The notes under the pieces are model-generated. The model ran no database searches and was not told the DNA's origin. It saw nothing but the letters and a program-made list of their open reading frames with translations. DNA of 64,000 nucleotides, from assembly GCA_009192285.1 (NCBI GenBank), contig CM018604.1:4621746-4685745 (forward strand), in the 5' to 3' direction. Shown in pieces: positions 3,492 through 40,602 of this stretch. The stretch comes from Morchella semilibera. Lineage: Eukaryota; Ascomycota; Pezizomycetes; Pezizales; Morchellaceae. The position numbers and the translations under genes are program-made. Numbering within the stretch: the first letter of the stretch is position 1; every line of letters begins with the position of its first letter.

Positions 3492-4175
3492 ACGGTCCTA
3501 CCCGCCCGCACACCCTGCTTCCCTGTGCCCGCTTGAATCTACCCGCTTGCATGCCCACCCGCTTGCCTGTCTGTGCCGTCCGCAGCATGTGATGAACCCG
3601 GAACCCGATACTTAGGTATGTCTTTTTAAACCGTTCCTTCACACGTACGGGGTGCTTGTCTGTGGCCACAACCTATCCTATGGCGCCGCAGGCCCACCAT
3701 ACCCGCGCACGTAAAACAGCAAACGCCCACCCTATCCCCAAGAGCGGAGCGAGAGCAAGAGCGGGGGGTGAGTGGTGGTGGTGGTGGTGGGGGGGGGGAG
3801 TGGTTACATACTTCCCCACGCGGCCAAAAAACCACCAACGCCCCCACCTGTGGCCGCTTTCCTAGATCCTACAGGGGGTTACCGCTTCCAGAAAGCATAC
3901 ATGTAAACGGCGTGATTCATCGTGATTGCTTCTACACTTCTGGCCGCCTATCCGCTAGCTAGCTTGCTTGGTGGTTGGGGAAAAAAAAAACCGCCAACAA
4001 AAGACTTACGCCCCCACCCGGGGCCGCTTCCTAGATTTTACGAGGGGGTTAGTGGGGGGGTCGAACCCGAGCGGTGTCGATCAGAGTGTGAGCTCTATAC
4101 CGCTCGGGAAAGCCCCCGGTGATTGCAGCTGCCGTTTTTACAATCTTGGGTGCGACAACATGGCGCTAGCTTGGC
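3492..4175. repeat. Copy B of the ~0.65-kb dispersed repeat
   Basis: Direct-orientation relative of 90-735 (shared blocks are listed there). It differs by a shorter purine tract and an inserted GGT/GGGG run (about 3768-3800). Around 3835-3882 there is a partial extra copy of the CGCCCCCACC...CCTAGAT segment that precedes the tRNA-like module. This suggests internal duplication or unequal exchange. Confidence 0.65.
3991..4174 (-). mobile_element. tRNA-derived SINE candidate, copy 3
   Basis: Third copy of the module at 536-734 and 2502-2694. The A-box and B-box equivalents and the 10-bp inverted repeat are intact on the minus strand. It begins after a run of ten A on the plus strand, which on the element's own strand would be a terminal T run. 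Confidence 0.55.
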
Positions 4176-15000: not shown

Positions 15001-15540
15001 ATCGTCACTCACGTTTACGACAACAACCAATTAACCTTCTTCACTTCATCCTTGGTACCGGACCCCTGACAGATTGAGAGTCACCGCCATACCTCTATCC
15101 GCCAGCGCCACCTTAAATCTACCCTTTACATCTCTCCAGAGGACGAGGTAGAGACCTGTTGGCTAATGAATTACCACATTCGTAGGCGTGCGACCTCGTC
15201 TTCTATTGGGCACGGCACTTGCAAATTACGCCGTCCAATAAACCCTGCGTCACTCACGAGCTCGGCTATTGCGAAACGCCGGACGGTAGGGCAACAGCAC
15301 ACCGTCGCTCACAAGGGCGCGAAACACCTGCAACAGCTCGCGGCTGAGATGATCCTCGCAGAAGGTCCCCTTAAAGCGTGGGGAAGTGGATGTTATTCTG
15401 GCCTCAATGTCTCATAAACTAGCTATCGAAAGGCATTACGGGCATTGGAGAGCGGATGAACCCGATCCCGGGGCGGGCCGGGCCGAGCTACTGGCTTGGC
15501 TGCCAAACATGGCGATGACCTGTATATTTAAGCTCCTACT
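6085..15540. other. Nine-kilobase region without a supported gene
   Basis: Open frames are short (longest about 167 codons), overlap on both strands and lack linked splice signals or recognisable motifs. Base composition is mixed, with no A/T-extreme RIP-like signature, but G-rich tracts occur (10.4-10.8 kb, 11.6-11.7 kb). One minus-strand stretch at about 7980-7560 reads protein-like across two frames and could be a decayed gene of unknown type. I could not recognise reverse transcriptase, integrase or transposase motifs. The region ends where the oxidosqualene cyclase fragment begins, so it may include the insertion or rearrangement that removed that gene's 5' part. Confidence 0.4.
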
Positions 15541-17108
15541 AGGGCTGGCGCTGGTGGTGCCACAACCGCCTCGTCTACCTCGCCATGAGCTACATGTACT
15601 CGCTCCAGCGCTCCCACCCCGAGAACGACCTGATCCGCTCGCTGCGCGAGGAGCTCTACACCCAGCCCTACGCCTCCATCGACTTTTCGCAGCACCGCAA
15701 CACCGTCGCCCCCGGCGACATCTACCACCCCCACACCAAGATCCTCGACGCCCTCAACGGCGTCCTCGGCCTCTGGGGCTCCTACCTCTGCCCGCGCGTC
15801 GTGCAGCGCGTCGCCCGCGACCACGTCTACGACCTCATCAAGCGCGAGGACGAGGCCTCCTCCTACTGCTGCCTCGGCCCCGTCAACAGCCCCTTCAACC
15901 TCATCGCCCGCTACTTTGCCGAGGGCGAGGACTCCCCCGCCGTCCGCGCCCACAGGGAGACGCTCAAGGACTTTATGTGGGTCAAGGGCGAGGGCATGCT
16001 CGTCAACGGCACGGACGGCGTGCAGTGCTGGGACACATCCTTCCTCATCCAGGCGCTCTACGAGGGCAACCTCGCCGACGAGCCGCAGTACCGCGACATG
16101 CTCGTCCGCGCGCTGCGGTTCCTCGACACGCAGCAGATCCGCGCCGACGTGCCCGAGGCCGACAAGGCGTACCGCCACCAGCGCAAGGGCGCGTGGCCCT
16201 TCTCCAAGCGCACGCAGGGCTACACCGTCTCCGACACCACGGCCGAGGCCCTCAAGAGCGTGCTCATGGTGCAGTCGGTCCCCGGCATGCCGCAGCTCAT
16301 CGGCCCGTCGCGCCTCCAGGACGCGGTCGACGTGCTGCTGACCATGCAGAACCCCAACGGCGGCTTCGGCAGCTACGAGCTCGCGCGCGCCGGCAAGTGG
16401 CTCGAGGCCCTCAACGCCGCCGAGGTCTTTGGCGGCATCATGATCGAGTACGAGTACCCCGAGTGCACCACCGCCGTCGTCATGGGACTCACCTACTTCC
16501 GCAAGACGTACCCGCGCTACCGCGCGCCAAGATCGACAACGTTGTCCGCCGGGCCGTGGCGTGGATCAAGACGGCGCAGCGCGGCGACGGCAGCTGGTAC
16601 GGCAGCTGGGGCATCTGCTTCACGTATGCGACCATGTTTGCGACGGAGGCGCTGCGCAGCGTCGGCGAGATCTGCCAGAACTCGGAGACGGTCCGCAGGG
16701 CGTGCGCGTTCCTGGTGGGGAAGCAGCGCGGGGACGGCGGCTGGGGCGAGAGCTACCGCAGCAGCGAGACGGGAGTCTATACGCACCACCGCGACAGCCA
16801 GGTCGTCAACACGGCGTGGGCGCTCATTGCCCTGATGAATGCGGAGTATCCGGACGTGGCGCCCATCGAGAGGGGAATCAAGCTGCTGATGGTGCGGCAG
16901 AGGGCGAATGGCGAGTGGCTGCAGGAGGCTATCGAGGGCGTGTTTAACAAGAGTTGGTGTGTATCCCCCCCTAGAGTGTGGCAGGAGAGTGGCTAATGTG
17001 GTGGGTAGTATGATATCGTATCCGAATTATAAGTTTACGTTCTCGATCAAGGCGCTGGGGATGTATGCGAAGCTGTATCGCAACCCGCAGTTGAGGCCTG
17101 AGGCGTAG
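15541..17108 (+). pseudogene. ERG7: Oxidosqualene-lanosterol cyclase, 5'-truncated and frameshifted
   Basis: The translation matches the C-terminal two thirds of lanosterol synthase, the enzyme that cyclises 2,3-oxidosqualene in ergosterol synthesis at ER or lipid-droplet membranes. Visible landmarks are RWWCHNRLVYLAMSY at the start, NGTDGVQCWDTSFLIQAL, the catalytic block YTVSDTTAE, NPNGGFGSYE and PECTTAV, GDGSWYGSWGICFTYA, and GGWGESYRS. An intron at 16957-17008 joins NKSC to MISYPNYKF, and the frame stops at 17106-17108. The catalytic motif is D-T-T-A-E where the family has D-C-T-A-E; the second supporting Cys (PECT) is kept. The frame breaks at a CGCGCGCC run near 16525. A TAG-ended acceptor (CCTACTAG) sits just before the first conserved codon. 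The N-terminal ~200 residues are not found upstream. It could be a remnant, or the 3' part of a gene split by a large insertion. Confidence 0.85.
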
Positions 17109-33035: not shown

Positions 33036-35962
33036 TTTCTTTTTTTCTTTCCCCCCCCCCCCTTTCATTTTTTTCGTTTTTTTCTTTTGGGTTGGATATT
33101 CGTGTGGGTAGCTAGATATTTCTTTCTTCTTTGGGTGATGGCGCAATGTTTTCTTCGTTCACAAGGGGTGCCTGTGGTTCGTTTTATTGTCTATGAGGGA
33201 TTGCCTTTGTTTTTTCTTTTCTTTCTTCGTAAAAAAGTTTCCGGGGCTTGCATCATGTAAGATTTTTATTGACACTGGGGGTTGGTTGTGTGTATTTCTG
33301 CTTCTACCTGTACTCTTTTATTTATTCCTCTTTTATTTCTCTTCATAGCGTGTATTGTGGGAAACTATGCTGGAGTTGGAATAGGGCATCATCATATCAT
33401 CGAAGATGGAGTTTTAGTTTTTTTTTTGTATTCTTTCCTCCCACCTTTTTCTTTCTCTTCAAGCACAATACACCTAGGAGCGCGGTGGAGCTGCGGAATT
33501 CCTGCATTGTTTTTAAATTCCTCTTCTTACTCTTCTACCCTTCGTGCATTCTTGAGTTGTTCTTTTATACCCTTTTTTTGTATTATCGCCTTTTATTTTT
33601 CGTTTATCATTATACCATTGAGGTGAGGGCCTGTTGCGGAGGGGTGCGTTTTTTGTTTTTTTTTAGTTTTTAGTCTTTTGGAAATCACCTTTTTAATTTT
33701 TACCCTTCTTTCTTCCGTGTGACTTTTGTTTCTTACGGTGGGGGTCGGGATCGAGATCGGCGTGGTTTCGTTTTGTCCCCTCTTCGTTCTGGTTTTTGTT
33801 TGAAAGGCATCTATCTATATCTCTCTACTCACTCTTCTTTAAGATGTTGATGATAACGAGTATAATGATTATGATTTTTTTTCTTTTCTTTTTTGATAAT
33901 TGCTGTGAATTTCTTTTCGTGGTACTAATGTTAGAATATATATGTTATTTGTCTTCCAAATACCAGGATAGTGAACATAGTCGTGATACTACCACTACCT
34001 TGTGGCTCGGGGGTGAGTCCCATCTTGTTCCTGTCAATGTTATAACGGGCCGGCCGGGAGTACAACCCAAACCTAGGGGGAGGCGAAAACACAACCGAGT
34101 GATCATTCGTGAAGCTAGCCGTAGGATATATTTATTTATCTATCTACCAATACTTCGTAACCGTAGGGTTTACAGACATATAATACACACATTTCTCACC
34201 ACCGAGCCGCTAGATGTACTTGATATAGCACACAGCTCTTGAAACTGACGATACCACAACGCGCAGGGGGTGCTGGCACCAAAAACCCAAACCCACCCCT
34301 AACCCCACAACCCTGGCCACCAAAGAATTGCCCGTTCAGTCCACTGCAGTCGACTATGCCAACCCAGGTAGTCCAAAAGCTTGGACGGACTATGGTGGAC
34401 TGCAGTCGACTGCAGTGTTTCAGCCAAGACAGTCCGTCCATCAGCAGGACGGGACTACGGACTATGGACTGCATAAGTACTTATATATTTTGGGTATGGT
34501 ATGCCGAAAAAGGCACCATAAATGGATTGTATACAGCTTGTAATATATAAGACTTCGAATTAGCAAGTATGAGAGAGGCTAGATGGAGTGTTTGGTATGG
34601 GGGCTGAGGCATTGCAAAGTCTAGCAGGGAACTAGTATTGCCACCAGAATTGCTCCCGAAAGCCCGAAGAAGAAGAAGGGGAATGGGACCGAGTGTAGAT
34701 ACGTAGGCTGGTGCGACCTCAAGTATTTAGTACGGCTTCACGTACTAAAGTGTACCCGCAGGGCTGGTCGTATTCAGGTAGCCCAGCAGACGTCGAAGCT
34801 CTTATATATACATCATGATTGCTTTAACGACCACTGTCCAAGCCCGCTGCCAAAACCGGCCTATCGATAGACGGATCTAGTCACTGCCGGCCAGAATAGC
34901 TGTTGGAGGCCAATAACACCGAGTATACCCGTAGCCTTGGGGACATTGTAGCTGTCATACTAATAACTGACTGGTGTCTGCTAATACATGTATGCAGTAT
35001 ACATATGTATGTCCCCACAACAGCTTTCGCGAGGGGGACTCCCGTCATGATATATCACTCGGTGCACCTGGGCGGGGAGATGTGTCTGGATTCCCTCCCT
35101 ATCGATGTCTCTCTCTTATTGCCTAAGGTCATATCAGTAAGGACCGAGTGTAAACAAAAGCTTACCAGATATGACCGGTGGTTAGTCGTGTCCGGAACTA
35201 GGTTCAGTGTGCCGCTGCCGTGTGTAGAGGGAGGCTACGGGGGCTACTATAAATGCCCTAGCTACCCGTTCCGTTATAGCCAAGGTGTCGTCCGACCGAG
35301 TGATTTCCTATGATGCTATCATATTTTCACAGCTGACCTCAATGGCGGCTATGGGGGGTGTGATGGGGGAATGGCGCGATGCCCGTGAAGCGTATTTACT
35401 AGAGGGGTTAGGATACACCGCTTAACTAGGGACTACTCCGGTCCTAGGTGAAATATAGTGGGCTCTATAACAGGTGGGGGGGGGGTCACAGAGATGAGAT
35501 TATACCAAGCTAAGGCGAAGGATTGCTTCTCGTGAGGGTAACTAGATTAAAGTTTAAACTGTAACTCATAGTTGGGACTGGGTACACTAGCAATCACGCC
35601 AAGAACAAATTCTCTACTACACGCGAACAAGAAGGTGTATTGCTTTCCTCTACAGCACGACCTAACAACAGAACACCCAACACTAAAACAACCACCAGAA
35701 AACCCAAACAAAAGAAGACACAGATATTCCCCACCCCCCGCAGCCAGAAAATGGCTTTTCTGCAGCCACCTCCTCCCGGAGAACATGAAAACCCCCCTAC
35801 CCCACCAATCCAGGCAGGAGGGTTTGAGTGTTTGAGTGTCCGCATCTTGCCCCCATGATGGATCGAAGATATGGCACCAGCGCCTATGGTTAGTGTTATG
35901 TTATGTTAGCCAACTGAAGCTGGCTCAGAGTCTATTTAGGGATGCGAATACTTGCTCTACGC
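33036..35962. other. Intergenic; T-rich 3' flank then repeats
   Basis: 33.04-33.95 kb is T-rich with long TTTT/TTCTTT runs and is probably the 3' untranslated and terminator region of the preceding gene. 34.3-34.5 kb has repeated GGACTATGG and CTGCAGTCGACT blocks. 34.8-35.4 kb contains two copies of the dispersed CGAGTGAT motif (35051 inverted, 35296 direct) and one TACATGTA (34985). Open frames are short and unconvincing. Confidence 0.4.
34399..34416. repeat. 18-bp perfect palindrome
   Basis: ACTGCAGTCGACTGCAGT is its own reverse complement. A partial copy (CCACTGCAGTCGACTATG) lies about 60 bases upstream at 34340. Both sit among GGACTATGG repeats. This could be a protein-binding site or just part of a small repeat. 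Confidence 0.6.
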
Positions 35963-38810
35963 TCACCCAGTGTGTCTGGACCGGCTCACCTCCTCCGGCG
36001 CTAGTAGGTATTCTCCATCTGGAGCTTGCCCACAGAATAATCTCTGTATGACTAGTAAATACACCGTGGTGTTAGCCATCTGTATAATTGCTGGCTTCAA
36101 TAGTAAGGAGTTAGTACTTACACAAAGAACAGTCTCTCTTCTGGAGGGCACCGATTGGGAGCAATTATGCTATAAAAGGCCAGGGTCAGCTATGAGCAAT
36201 CATTATTTTAGATCAGAAGGGGACTTGCGAGCCACAGGCCACAGGCCACAGATAATCCGGATAATCACACATTTACTAAGACGACAATGTCAGTAAACTA
36301 AGCGGTACTATATCGTTAGAATACTTACCCGCCACAGGCCACAGATAATCCGGATAATCACACATCTTTTGAATTCACAATAATGTCAGCAGACTAAGCG
36401 GTACTATATCGTTTGAATACTTACAAGCCACAGCCACAGGCCACAGATAATCCGGATAATCACACATCTTTTGAATTCACAATAATGTCAGCAAACTAAG
36501 CGGTACTATATTGTTTGAATACTTACAAGCCACAGCCACAGGCCACAGAGATATCCGGATAATCACACATCTATTGAGTTCACGATAATGTCAGCAAACC
36601 AAGCGGTGCTATATCGTTAGAATACGTACAAGCCGCAGCCACAGGCCACAGAGATGTCTGGATAATCGCACATCTATTGAGTTCACGATAATATCAGTAA
36701 ACTGAGCGGTGCTATGTCGTTGGGATACTTACAAACCACCGACATATCGGGGTTAAGGTCCCACCAAAGATCTAATAGATTTAGTATAATATTAACAATC
36801 TAGTAGCACTTGTATGTCAGTAGGAGGCTTACGAGATTTTCGGCTTTCATCTAGTGGGTCCATGATAATGTCGGGAAGGCGGATGGCGATAATTTACGGT
36901 CGAAACCCTTGGGGCTATTAATTTTCATGAATTAGCAAAGTCCCAGAATCATTATTCCCAGCGAAGGACTTACTCACACACACACGGCCCAATCTTTTCG
37001 TCAACCTAGTCACCAATATCATATCAGTCATTTATTCAACAAACTAAAGGTGGTCATAATAATGATGTATACCAATGGCACTACACAGGTGGCAATAAAC
37101 CTACCTATCAGCAGAAACAAGGCAAACCAGAACGGCTCTATAGAGTCAATTGAATCCTAGACCACACTTCAAGCGCAGGGGTATGCGGATCCTGTGGGCG
37201 GTGTGGCTCAGTGGGAGCCGATTGAACTCTGGACCATAGTCATAGCTATATGGGCGGCGCAGGAAATCTAGTAGTAGTATGTGAGGGTGGAACCCCACAG
37301 GGACCAAAGACAGTTCTCTTGTAGTAGGCATGGCCAAACCACAGTAATATAGCTAGGTAGGGCCGATTGTAGCATTAGCTATTAGTATCTCCTTAGATCA
37401 GGGGATAGATGTGCTTGCAAGACGAGAGCGGGGAAACAATGACCAGCATTGTTTCCCCAAAGCTGCAGACAACAGTCAGAGTTGACTGAATATATCGTGC
37501 ATAGGAGGCACAGGGCCGAAAACAATCTTTTCAGTGGTGTCTTTGATGAGAACCAAAGACTGTGGCGGGTAAACCACGTAATTAGCCATTTTCACTCAAA
37601 AGAAATCTTGGATGTAGGTCAATAAAATTTCAGTAGTCTTACTTGGTAGTAATAATATCGATTACTTACCCGAAACTGGGGCTGGAACGAGGGAGCCAGC
37701 CACTTTTTATATTGAGAACACCTTATTAGCGGCCCATACCCAAAACTTAAAAGAAGATAGGGTGACTAAATACCTCGAAGGAGAATATTCCCCTGACCAC
37801 TCTGACCGGAGAATGCATTGTTTTACCCACCCCCCAGAATGTTGGGGCTGAAGGTACTAATTAAGTACTTTTCTATTAGCTATTTGTACTTAAATGCAAA
37901 TTTGTCTAGAATTACTTACTAGGCGAGAGGTGAATCTGGCTGTAACAGGATTAAACATCATCCGTCAGCTAGTAACCCCGAATAGATAAATAAATAGCAA
38001 CAATTGTTCTAATATTCACCCGAGTCGGTTTACTGGCACCCTAATACTTGAGAAAAACATCACAGCATCAGTAACAAAACACCTAAATAAAAAAAATAAA
38101 AAAAAGACAACTTACCCAGATCAATTGCAATCCCCAGATATATTGCCATCTCTACACCACTACCACCACGCTATATTAGCAACCAGTCAATCTGGAGAGA
38201 AAGAGAGAAAAGCAACAACAAAGAGTATCAACTACTCACCCGACCCACCCCCAGACAATCATAATCGGGGATATCTTTCTCCCCCCAGATAGTCCGGGAA
38301 ACAAAACGTCCTACAACACCATACACATCAGTAACACAAACTCAACATCAATAAAGATATACACACCGCATTCCGCCCTAGGTGGTCTTGTATCTGGGTA
38401 ATTAATACTAGTAGAGCTGCAACACCAAGTCAATAAGTCAGCAATCTCGAGGCAGGAAAAGATGATAGAAGTACTCACCAAACGGAGGCACCCCAGAACC
38501 TACTCCTTGTCATTCGACGGACGGACCCTATATGTAGGTTGAGGGGAAACGAGCACCGTACATCATCCTCGGTCTTCGGCAATGGGGAGTAAAGAACAGA
38601 AAAATATAGAAAGAATAAAGAAAAGAAACACCCCAGATTTCACTAGCATATCCTCTCCCCTAGATCCACTCCCAAGGTCAGGCAGATGCTCTAGAACGAG
38701 AAGGGGAGGGGGAGAGGATAAATAAAAGAAGCAAAGGAGACAAACAAACAATAAAGGATAGGGAAATGCTCACCCCTACTCTTGTCCTCATCTTCATCCC
38801 TATTCCCCAT
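35963..38810 (-). CDS. Gene built from a chain of tiny exons (micro-exon gene), product unknown
   Basis: On the minus strand, canonical donor, branch-point and acceptor signals alternate over ~2.8 kb with exons of only 12-71 nt. Clear exons are 38810-38774 (starts with ATG), 38690-38632, 38527-38479, 38416-38367, 38310-38240, 38151-38116, 38040-38020, 37939-37920, 37847-37827, 37681-37670, 37005-36974, 36914-36898 and 36850-36833. Five amplified copies follow (36771-36329). Donors are mostly GTAAGT or GTGAGT, branch points GCTGAC, GCTAAT or TACTGAT. Several exons encode related peptides with a Pro-Asp core: EHLPDLGSG, NYPDTRPP, KDIPDYDCLGVG, DLNPDMSVV and DYPDISVA. Exons between 37.67 and 37.01 kb, and the true start and end, are not resolved; candidate frames MANYVVYPPQ (37589) and MANTTVYLLV (36080) may belong. 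There are no known domains. An alternative is a non-coding spliced transcript. Confidence 0.45.
36276..36771 (-). repeat. Tandem array of exon-intron units, ~102 nt period
   Basis: Five successive units on the minus strand. Each has a 37-44-nt exon (36771-36733, 36673-36630, 36570-36527, 36467-36425, 36365-36329) followed by an intron. Four introns (36732-36674, 36629-36571, 36526-36468, 36424-36366) are exactly 59 nt and nearly identical. They start GTAAGTAT or GTACGTAT, carry TACTGAT or GCTGAC about 20 nt before the acceptor, and end ATAG or AAAG. The fifth intron (36328-36276) is 53 nt. Exons begin ATGTGTGATTATCCGGAT and end GTGGCTT. A sixth, partial exon copy follows at 36275. Splice signals are conserved in every copy. 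Confidence 0.85.
37430..37458. repeat. Perfect 12-bp-arm hairpin
   Basis: GGGGAAACAATG (37430-37441) and CATTGTTTCCCC (37447-37458) are exact reverse complements separated by ACCAG. It lies in the poorly resolved middle of the micro-exon gene, about 20 bases from a CTGCAG acceptor-like site, and could affect splicing of that transcript. Confidence 0.75.
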
Positions 38811-39825
38811 TTCGAGCGGAGGAGCAGAGGGTAGGAAAAAAAGCAAAGAAGACCCAAATAACAATTAACAGGGGAAAGAAACTCTGTTCCCCTTTCTAGC
38901 AGCTGCAGTAGAGGAGAGAGATGAATCTAGATACATCCATCGCATCGTTAGCACAACTCTCTCACCACTATTAAGGGGAATGTGGATGTCGTATCTTACC
39001 TCTTCTGCCCCTACTTCTCGACAAAAATACAGAATAAAAGTACAATAAAAGTACAGAATAAAAGCAGGCAAGGGGGAAGGAGGAGGAGGAGGAGGAGGAG
39101 GAGGAGGACGATAATAAGTAAACCCCCAGCAGCAGCAGCAGCAATGGGCCAATTTTCAAAGTCAGGCACAAGTAGAAGGACGAAGTTGATGAAGAGAAGA
39201 GAAGGAAGCAGCTAATAAAGCAGCTCCTAAACCCCGCACTTGCGTGCTAGAGATTTCGAGGATGCGAAGTATATATTATTACAGTCTATCTGTTAAGATT
39301 ATTGGTTATTCGGCGACTACTGCTACTGCTAGTACTCGTAATACATGTAGCACTAGCTAGAGTTTACTGGATACATGTATGGACGCTGGTCTTGGCTATT
39401 CAGCGATTGGCGCCTGGGGTGTTAAGAGTGTTCACTAGTGGGTGGTAGTGGGTGGGATTACTGTATTGGGCCATTCCACATAGCCCCGTCGTAGTTGAAC
39501 GCTCCTTATTTGCTGCGTGCACCCCCCGAATCTTGTACTACATATGAAGGATCGGTGCAAAGTTTAAATGTCTACTCGAGTACGGGTCTATCCTGTGCAA
39601 TGCGCATCATTGTGCATCATGCATATCACCACTGAACCATACATCACTATTAGAGCCCCCTTCAGCAGGACCTACAATTCCCCTTTTGGAACATCTACTA
39701 ATCCAATCTACTAATCAGGCCAAATCGGGTACATTATTACTAACGCCATCCTAATACGCCCGCAAAGCCAGCAACACAACAAAAAAAAAACAAAAGACAA
39801 AAAAAAACAAGACAAAAACTCCCCT
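38811..39825. other. Flank of the micro-exon gene, with microsatellites
   Basis: Splice-like signals continue on the minus strand (GGTAAG near 39000; GTGAGAG, GCTAAC and CTGCAG around 38965-38900), so the micro-exon gene may begin further upstream, up to about 39200. A (GAG/GGA)n run at 39079-39110 and a (CAG)n run at 39128-39143 make low-complexity frames. Two TACATGTA octamers (39342, 39372) lie in the AT-rich part. No other gene is seen. Confidence 0.4.
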
Positions 39826-40602
39826 CTAGACCAGCACGCCCAAATACTCTGCCCTCCCCCACTTCTCCCTCAACCCCGGCCACTGCACCACAAACCTGTC
39901 CACAAGCGGATACAGCAACCTCCCGGACAGGGACAGCGTTTTCACCCTCGCAAACGACTCCACATACACCGTCCTCGTGCTACCCCCAAAAAACCTAAAC
40001 AGCAAGCACACCGCCACCATCATCACCGCCGACCCGGGCCCATTACACACCACGACATCGGGCAACCCGGGGCCCGTGAACGCCTTCACACACCCCCACA
40101 GGCACGCAAGACAGCTGAACGGCGTTGTCAGCCAGCTCTGTCCCACCCGTCGTGCACGCGGAATCTCGCACAGCGTGTAGGTGGATTTTTTCTTCTCATT
40201 GATGCCACTGGTAGTTGTGGCGGCGGCGGCGGCGGCGAGGGTATGCTCAAAGGCGGCGGCTTTGGATACAGAGAAAGTGTCGCCGGAGGAGAATACGTAG
40301 GTACGAGTGTAGCGGTCTGGGGGGAGAGCGCTGAGAAGAGACAGCATTTCGGCAGTGTGGCCACCGGAGCCGAGGAGAAAGAGGACATGCGGGAGGTGTT
40401 TGGGAGAGTGATGGGTGGGTGGGGGGCGGGGTGTAAAGTAGGGTATAATGGCGCGAAGACGGAGCTATGGGTTTTATTATTATTATTATTAGCCAGGTAG
40501 TTTAAATAAATACAGAGAGGAATTCTAGAGTAGAGGGGGAATTACAATTGAGAGAGTGGATATCGCAAAGAGAATGACGAGTGACATTATTAGCAAAACC
40601 AT
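39826..40602 (-). CDS. ALG14: UDP-GlcNAc transferase membrane subunit Alg14
   Basis: Two exons (40602-40546, 40464-39826) encode 231 residues, the usual size. Alg14 anchors the catalytic Alg13 to the cytosolic face of the ER. Together they add the second GlcNAc to GlcNAc-PP-dolichol in N-glycan precursor synthesis. Exon 1 supplies the N-terminal membrane anchor (VLLIMSLVILFAISTLSI). The 81-nt intron (GTAATT, GGCTAAT, CCATAG) joins in phase 0 to LRLRAIIPYF. Family landmarks follow: HVLFLLGSGGHTAEMLSLL, RTYVFSSGDTFSVSKA, PRARRVGQSW, VVVCNGPGSAVMM, RTVYVESFARVKTLSLSGRL and FVVQWPGLREKW. A poly-Ala/Thr insert (about residues 105-120) is a local expansion. It is divergent from the bL27m gene, 220 bp away. 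Confidence 0.95.

Follow-up and report, generated by a model that had tools for sequence, protein, structure and literature searches.

What does a fungal genome hold where splice signals recur so densely that only very short exons are left between one intron and the next? We addressed this question for a locus on the minus strand of the window, by which we mean the whole stretch of 64,000 nucleotides (nt) of Morchella semilibera that was analysed (C2:4621746-4685745; bare positions below are window positions), and genome-wide searches covered 56,756,124 bases in 23 contigs. An earlier note had described the locus as a candidate micro-exon gene with about twenty exons in a row. On sequence evidence we lean, with little better than even confidence, to a micro-exon gene of Morchella that is single copy, evolves rapidly, lies on the minus strand and has approximately 15-20 short introns.

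By intron scoring, donors, branch sites and acceptors repeat across the locus on the minus strand, and a scored chain runs from 38478 to 35884 with 20 introns of 47-83 nt each, two of which are weak (37739, score 10.9; 37104, score 14.7). In the direction of the minus strand, the parts of the locus are:

near 39040-39220: CT-rich stretch upstream of the putative 5′ untranslated region (UTR) intron, from reading the sequence
38927..38999, minus strand: putative 5′ UTR intron (GTAAGA..CTAAC..TAG, 73 nt, score 18.4)
37857..38478, minus strand: 5′ micro-exon block with exons of about 13-71 nt and a run of 6 intron-like sites
38478-38417, 38366-38311, 38239-38171, 38115-38041, 38019-37940 and 37919-37857, minus strand: introns of the 5′ block, from intron scoring
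36974..37856, minus strand: intron-poor middle with one good intron, 37669-37607
36733..36897, minus strand: two diverged units with unit-homology scores above the control maximum
intron 36897-36851 with exon 36850-36833, minus strand: diverged unit 1
intron 36832-36772 with exon 36771-36733, minus strand: diverged unit 2, one frame of which reads LNPDMSVV
36229..36732, minus strand: tandem array of 5 exon-intron units of 96-103 nt, from Tandem Repeats Finder (TRF), intron scoring and a profile
36673-36630, 36570-36527, 36467-36425, 36365-36329 and 36275-36229, minus strand: array exons of 44, 44, 43, 37 and 47 nt, with array introns of 59, 59, 59, 59 and 53 nt
35884..36228, minus strand: 3′ introns 36228-36170 (GC donor), 36121-36052 and 35966-35884, separated by exons of 48 and 85 nt

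We next give the density of these signals relative to controls. A scan for intron-like sites in succession (gap ≤75 nt), whose sites partly differ from those of the scored chain, returned two minus-strand runs, one of 9 sites (36973-36052), which ends with the 3′ introns 36228-36170 and 36121-36052, and one of 6 sites (38478-37868). Both lie at the micro-exon locus, and the longest run on the window's plus strand was 1. Runs of at least 4 were found in none of 20 arbitrary 10-kb loci of the same genome (L005-L024), and none of five Markov shuffles of the window reached 4 (longest run 2-3). Among all 24 non-window loci scanned, such runs occurred only in L025, L026 and L027, which, unlike the arbitrary loci, were chosen because arrays lie there, and not in L028. 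The recurrence of minus-strand donors, branch points and acceptors, as the earlier note had reported it, is borne out by these counts, but the row is broken: within 37856-36974, stretches of 117 nt and 502 nt lack a good intron. The dense series of splice signals is real and rare, yet it forms no unbroken row of about 20 exons. In the available part of its description, Morchella crassipes M10M26 has a median intron of 63 bp and 3.8 exons per gene (PMC7014384); intron lengths at the locus match this median, which we count in favour of a micro-exon gene.

At the 3′ end, TRF reports a 103-nt tandem repeat of 5.1 copies (36223-36739), each unit comprising a single intron and a single exon; AAG, a weaker acceptor, closes two of the five array introns. 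The profile of the five units also matches just upstream, at 36832-36732 (E 0.07) and 36877-36848 (E 0.22). In a unit-homology test with splice motifs masked, which compared 16 units (one from the array) with the array and used 116 introns from this genome as controls, the array unit 36732 scored 138, and units 36832 (34), 36897 (25) and, barely, 38999 (23) also exceeded the control maximum of 22. The other 12 of the 16 stayed within the control range (p 0.10-0.92). Judged by these similarities, duplication of an exon-intron unit is evident only in the 3′ block (36897-36229), and the idea of a gene grown by repeating one such unit is supported for this block alone. Units 36897 and 36832 are strongly diverged and still have scored splice sites, a retention that likewise counts for a micro-exon gene.

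Could the exons be coding? Spliced open frames were compared, under loose and strict settings, with 300 block shuffles in which the set of candidate introns was retained. For the 3′ half, the best spliced open frame (12 exons, 172 residues) scored above all 300 shuffles, and its exon number was reached by none of them; for the 5′ half, an open frame of 7 exons from 38513 to 37747 scored above 295 (loose) and 293 (strict) of the 300. Substitutions between related exons point the same way. Between array exons 1 and 2 there are four differences, all of them at third positions of the frame MCDYPDISVACGCG, and when the alignable part of exon 36771 is added, the two exon pairs show 12 substitutions, 10 of which hit the third position in the Pro-Asp frame (p 5.4e-4), a count that omits the unalignable start of exon 36771 and the indel-bearing array exons 3-5. 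Pro-Asp codon pairs (CCNGAY) occur 9 times in 710 nt, against 1.68 expected, and 0 of 1,000 shuffles reached 9, for a hand-picked list of 16 exons that includes one array exon and excludes the 502-nt stretch. The Pro-Asp core noted earlier is therefore enriched, but both motif and frame were picked post hoc, and once about 400 dipeptides are allowed for the excess is only moderate. Taken together, the tests of open frames and of third positions tilt towards coding. Models that keep a single frame across as many as 25 exons were obtained only under lax settings, and we do not claim them.

The locus is single copy in the genome: a DNA search with a 3-kb query (very common words skipped) matched only the query itself, and all 11 matches of a protein search lie within the locus.

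A number of results weigh against a translated gene. The modelled peptide (254 amino acids, two partial models joined) yielded 159 candidates and none at E ≤ 1, so the homologue search proposed for the assembled peptide came back empty, and Pfam gave 0 families at E up to 1 for the locus's two modelled peptides, which come from uncertain and possibly incomplete models; the suggestion of a secreted or effector peptide gained no evidence from them. As a control we searched with ALG14, the upstream neighbour and an ordinary gene outside the micro-exon locus (39829..40464, minus strand; Pfam PF08660, E 8.3e-53, and homologues). This search found 2217 proteins, and the 120 matches listed include Pezizomycetes, among them Tuber, with a best identity of 75%, and no named Morchella, which means that the homologue search is blind to a gene confined to Morchella. 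Within the locus, the array exon lengths break the frame (none of the five is a multiple of 3), and by hand reading neighbouring array exons cannot both use the Pro-Asp frame in one constitutive transcript; the open path switches between this frame and another. Hand reading also finds that every open frame out of exon 36365 is closed by a stop within exon 36275-36229 when that exon is taken in full, so that three introns would fall in the 3′ UTR; the strict 3′ model terminates at exon 36275, and longer models escape the stop only via an exon of 5-7 nt. The exon number of the 5′ half was matched by 50 (loose) and 44 (strict) of 300 shuffles, the whole-locus frame is weaker (score reached by 6 and 20 of 300, exon number matched by 15 and 69 of 300, loose and strict, respectively), and codon usage gives the chosen frame only a slight advantage. 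The broken frame, the stop in the strict model, the moderate whole-locus result and the lack of a homologue or domain would all suit a spliced non-coding or decaying transcript, whose structure is used while its exons no longer code for protein and the indels of the array exons are neutral. Such a transcript would not account for the third-position bias and Pro-Asp enrichment or for a 3′ open frame that beats every shuffle, and Rfam matched no RNA family at gathering score, nor at E up to 5 on 35500-39400; we regard it as possible but doubtful. On balance, these sequence comparisons suggest that the locus is probably coding, or was until recently.

The signal series has a weakness of its own, in that five of the nine sites in the longer run are copies of one unit and hence non-independent. 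A tandem repeat multiplies chance sites, and at another array of this genome, on C20, a laxer threshold gave a run of 22 on the opposite strand. The array might thus be a minisatellite that carries splice sites by chance, inside one long intron or in untranscribed DNA, with internal sites that are not individually used: duplication in tandem brings copies of the splice sites with it, a repeat may show a run even on the opposite strand, and the AAG ends of two array introns fit this account. However, the run of 6 and the introns outside the array are free of the tandem-copy weakness. Signals are equally dense in the 5′ block and in the introns that flank the array on its 3′ side, neither of which shows a detectable relation to the array, the diverged units retain their splice sites, and the exon substitutions follow codon structure, all of which makes a minisatellite quite improbable.

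How does a putative single-copy micro-exon gene of this kind compare with known systems? In schistosome micro-exon genes (MEGs), most of the coding sequence lies in very short exons, the micro-exons are mostly symmetric, that is, multiples of 3, and a signal peptide is encoded by the first coding exon. For the window locus the models place the start codon only with uncertainty. The window locus is alike in that its coding sequence would sit mostly in very short exons, and unlike in the asymmetry of all five array exons and in belonging to an unrelated organism. For Pezizomycetes, mini-exons in the NACHT-ANK (nank) genes of Tuber were reportedly first described by Iotti et al. in 2012. In Tuber melanosporum these genes carry arrays of codon-sized, 3-bp mini-exons with alternative splicing (PMC9815663, PMC4986451; the comparisons made here draw on parts of these papers). 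Tuber nank genes and the window locus both belong to Pezizomycetes, both show mini-exons in tandem series (present here as sequence signals), and in both splicing could be a way to diversify the gene. They differ in exon size, with 3 bp in Tuber and 37-47 nt in the window array (~12-71 nt elsewhere in the locus), none of the array exons a multiple of 3; in domains, as nank genes have NACHT and ankyrin and the two modelled peptides match neither; and in setting, as the window locus, unlike the nank genes, stands alone beside ALG14. Given the differences in exon size and domains from the nank genes as these sources describe them, the window locus is not a member of the nank type. The introner-like elements of fungi, near-identical introns multiplied in one genome, are described in the available part of one report (PMC4457414) as copied across many unrelated genes, whereas the copies at the window locus are confined to one tandem block. 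Our literature search, as far as its listings reached, turned up no work on Morchella micro-exons.

Arrays of 3-nt exons also lie elsewhere in the M. semilibera genome:

C22:1598063-1599238 and 1605177-1605985 (L027 2046-3238 and 9165-9985): C22 array of about 36 units (TRF, 21.2 and 14.6 copies)
C5:170528-172674 and 178900-179014 (L029 and flank): related 57-nt array, interrupted by a long terminal repeat (LTR) element
C20:4026849-4028911 (L030): 3-nt exons near an open reading frame (ORF) with an MSFG-type N-terminus
C21:773227-773538 with C22:774648-774959 (L031): 3-nt exons near an ORF with an MSFG-type N-terminus

The N-terminal start MSFG(I/V)G(I/V)GD is present at three loci (C20, C21 and C22:1598k), and the C5 sequence is alike by eye; in these MSFG-type genes, arrays whose units pair a short intron with a 3-nt exon lie downstream. 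Pfam identified ULD_2 at C22:1598k (E 1.8e-12), a ULD_2-like stretch at C21 was judged by eye, and the N-terminal parts of the C22 and C5 genes gave no meaningful E in Pfam. The C22 array follows the ULD_2 stretch, has variable 3-nt exons and is split by a Ty3/gypsy-like LTR element. With a unit pattern that allowed exons of 1-7 nt, exons were exactly 3 nt in 34 of 34 cases at C22 and 28 of 29 at C5. Stop codons were absent from them, and the columns that hold the exon rank among the most variable of these arrays. Intron-score chains of the 3-nt arrays also hold a few exons of 1, 4, 7 or 13 nt; in the C20 chain 24 of 30 exons are 3 nt, one being TAG, and the C21 chain is less regular. As far as examined and as far as the partial sources describe the Tuber genes, MSFG-type genes resemble nank genes closely and differ in the N-terminal part. 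The locus had been called unusual for filamentous ascomycetes, which stands for its signal density (0/20 loci) but not for the array as such, given the reported truffle arrays and several more in the same genome. Contig pairs C9/C10, C12/C13 and C21/C22 have near-identical matches at closely corresponding positions, as would be expected had two nuclear haplotypes been assembled separately.

A second array with exons of similar size came from triple-donor pattern scans of the genome, in which arrays were called only from clustered matches, making the number of arrays a lower bound. Matches for pattern versus reversed pattern numbered 31 versus 54, 20 versus 5, 17 versus 17 and 62 versus 23, and for another pattern at least 103 versus 55 among the matches listed.

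C9:1708531-1708993 (L025/L026 about 3500-4100): C9 array with a counterpart on C10, from the triple-donor scan

Its units, which follow an ATG, combine an intron of 43-50 nt with an exon of 37-45 nt (37, 44 and 45 nt). The two contigs are near-identical (compared pieces 99.5 and 99.9%), except that C10 has one extra 87-bp unit with a 37-nt exon and a first exon shorter by 1 nt. With simple splicing and the last GTAAGT left unspliced, both are open, C9 encoding 89 residues and C10 a product longer by 12. The extra 37-nt exon is offset by the shorter first exon, so the downstream frame is the same as on C9, an agreement with a chance expectation of one in three. The one-unit difference may be an assembly error. 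An open-frame test, in which the optimiser picked sites other than those of simple splicing, was not significant (19 of 300 shuffles reached the score for C9 and 73 of 300 for C10). Like the window locus, this array is a small stand-alone locus of tandem units with a short intron and an exon of similar size; unlike it, there is no DNA match between the two, and the modelled peptide lacks a Pro-Asp pair. We count the presence of other micro-exon arrays in the genome, among them this one with similar exon size and, on both contigs, an open spliced frame after an ATG, in favour of a micro-exon gene in the window.

Elsewhere in the window, an ORF with a squalene-hopene cyclase C-terminal domain lies at 15353-16996 on the plus strand.

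How might such a gene work and grow? We infer that the locus is transcribed, spliced and translated, with a role in rapid diversification. Transcription would probably start in the CT-rich region near 39.0-39.2 kb on the minus strand. Each short intron has its own donor, branch site and acceptor and would be recognized by the spliceosome across the intron, so that exon size would hardly matter. In the 3′ part, one intron with an exon of ~44 nt has been copied several times over, with slippage or unequal crossing-over as the probable mechanism, and the exons may code, or until recently have coded, for a short peptide built around Pro-Asp. Since the length of no unit exon is divisible by 3, a unit that is gained, lost or skipped would shift the downstream frame, and copy-number change and alternative splicing would both alter the protein. 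A broader proposal, which we consider rather unlikely, is that stand-alone genes of morels diversify by copying a frame-shifting micro-exon with its intron, unit-number polymorphism giving rise to new peptide sequence; the one-unit difference between C9 and C10, with its kept downstream frame, would be a snapshot of such diversification.

Mini-exon arrays are already known from Pezizomycetes, and in relation to the Tuber arrays our best reading of the sequence is that the window locus is a new variant with larger exons. If it is spliced as read, it would offer a direct view of the origin of introns and micro-exons through the tandem making and keeping of exon-intron units. Such genes could easily be missed by automatic annotation. 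Set beside the truffle genes of nonself-recognition type, in so far as the available parts of their descriptions extend, the locus suggests that mini-exon arrays may be wider in Pezizomycetes and of more than one size class.
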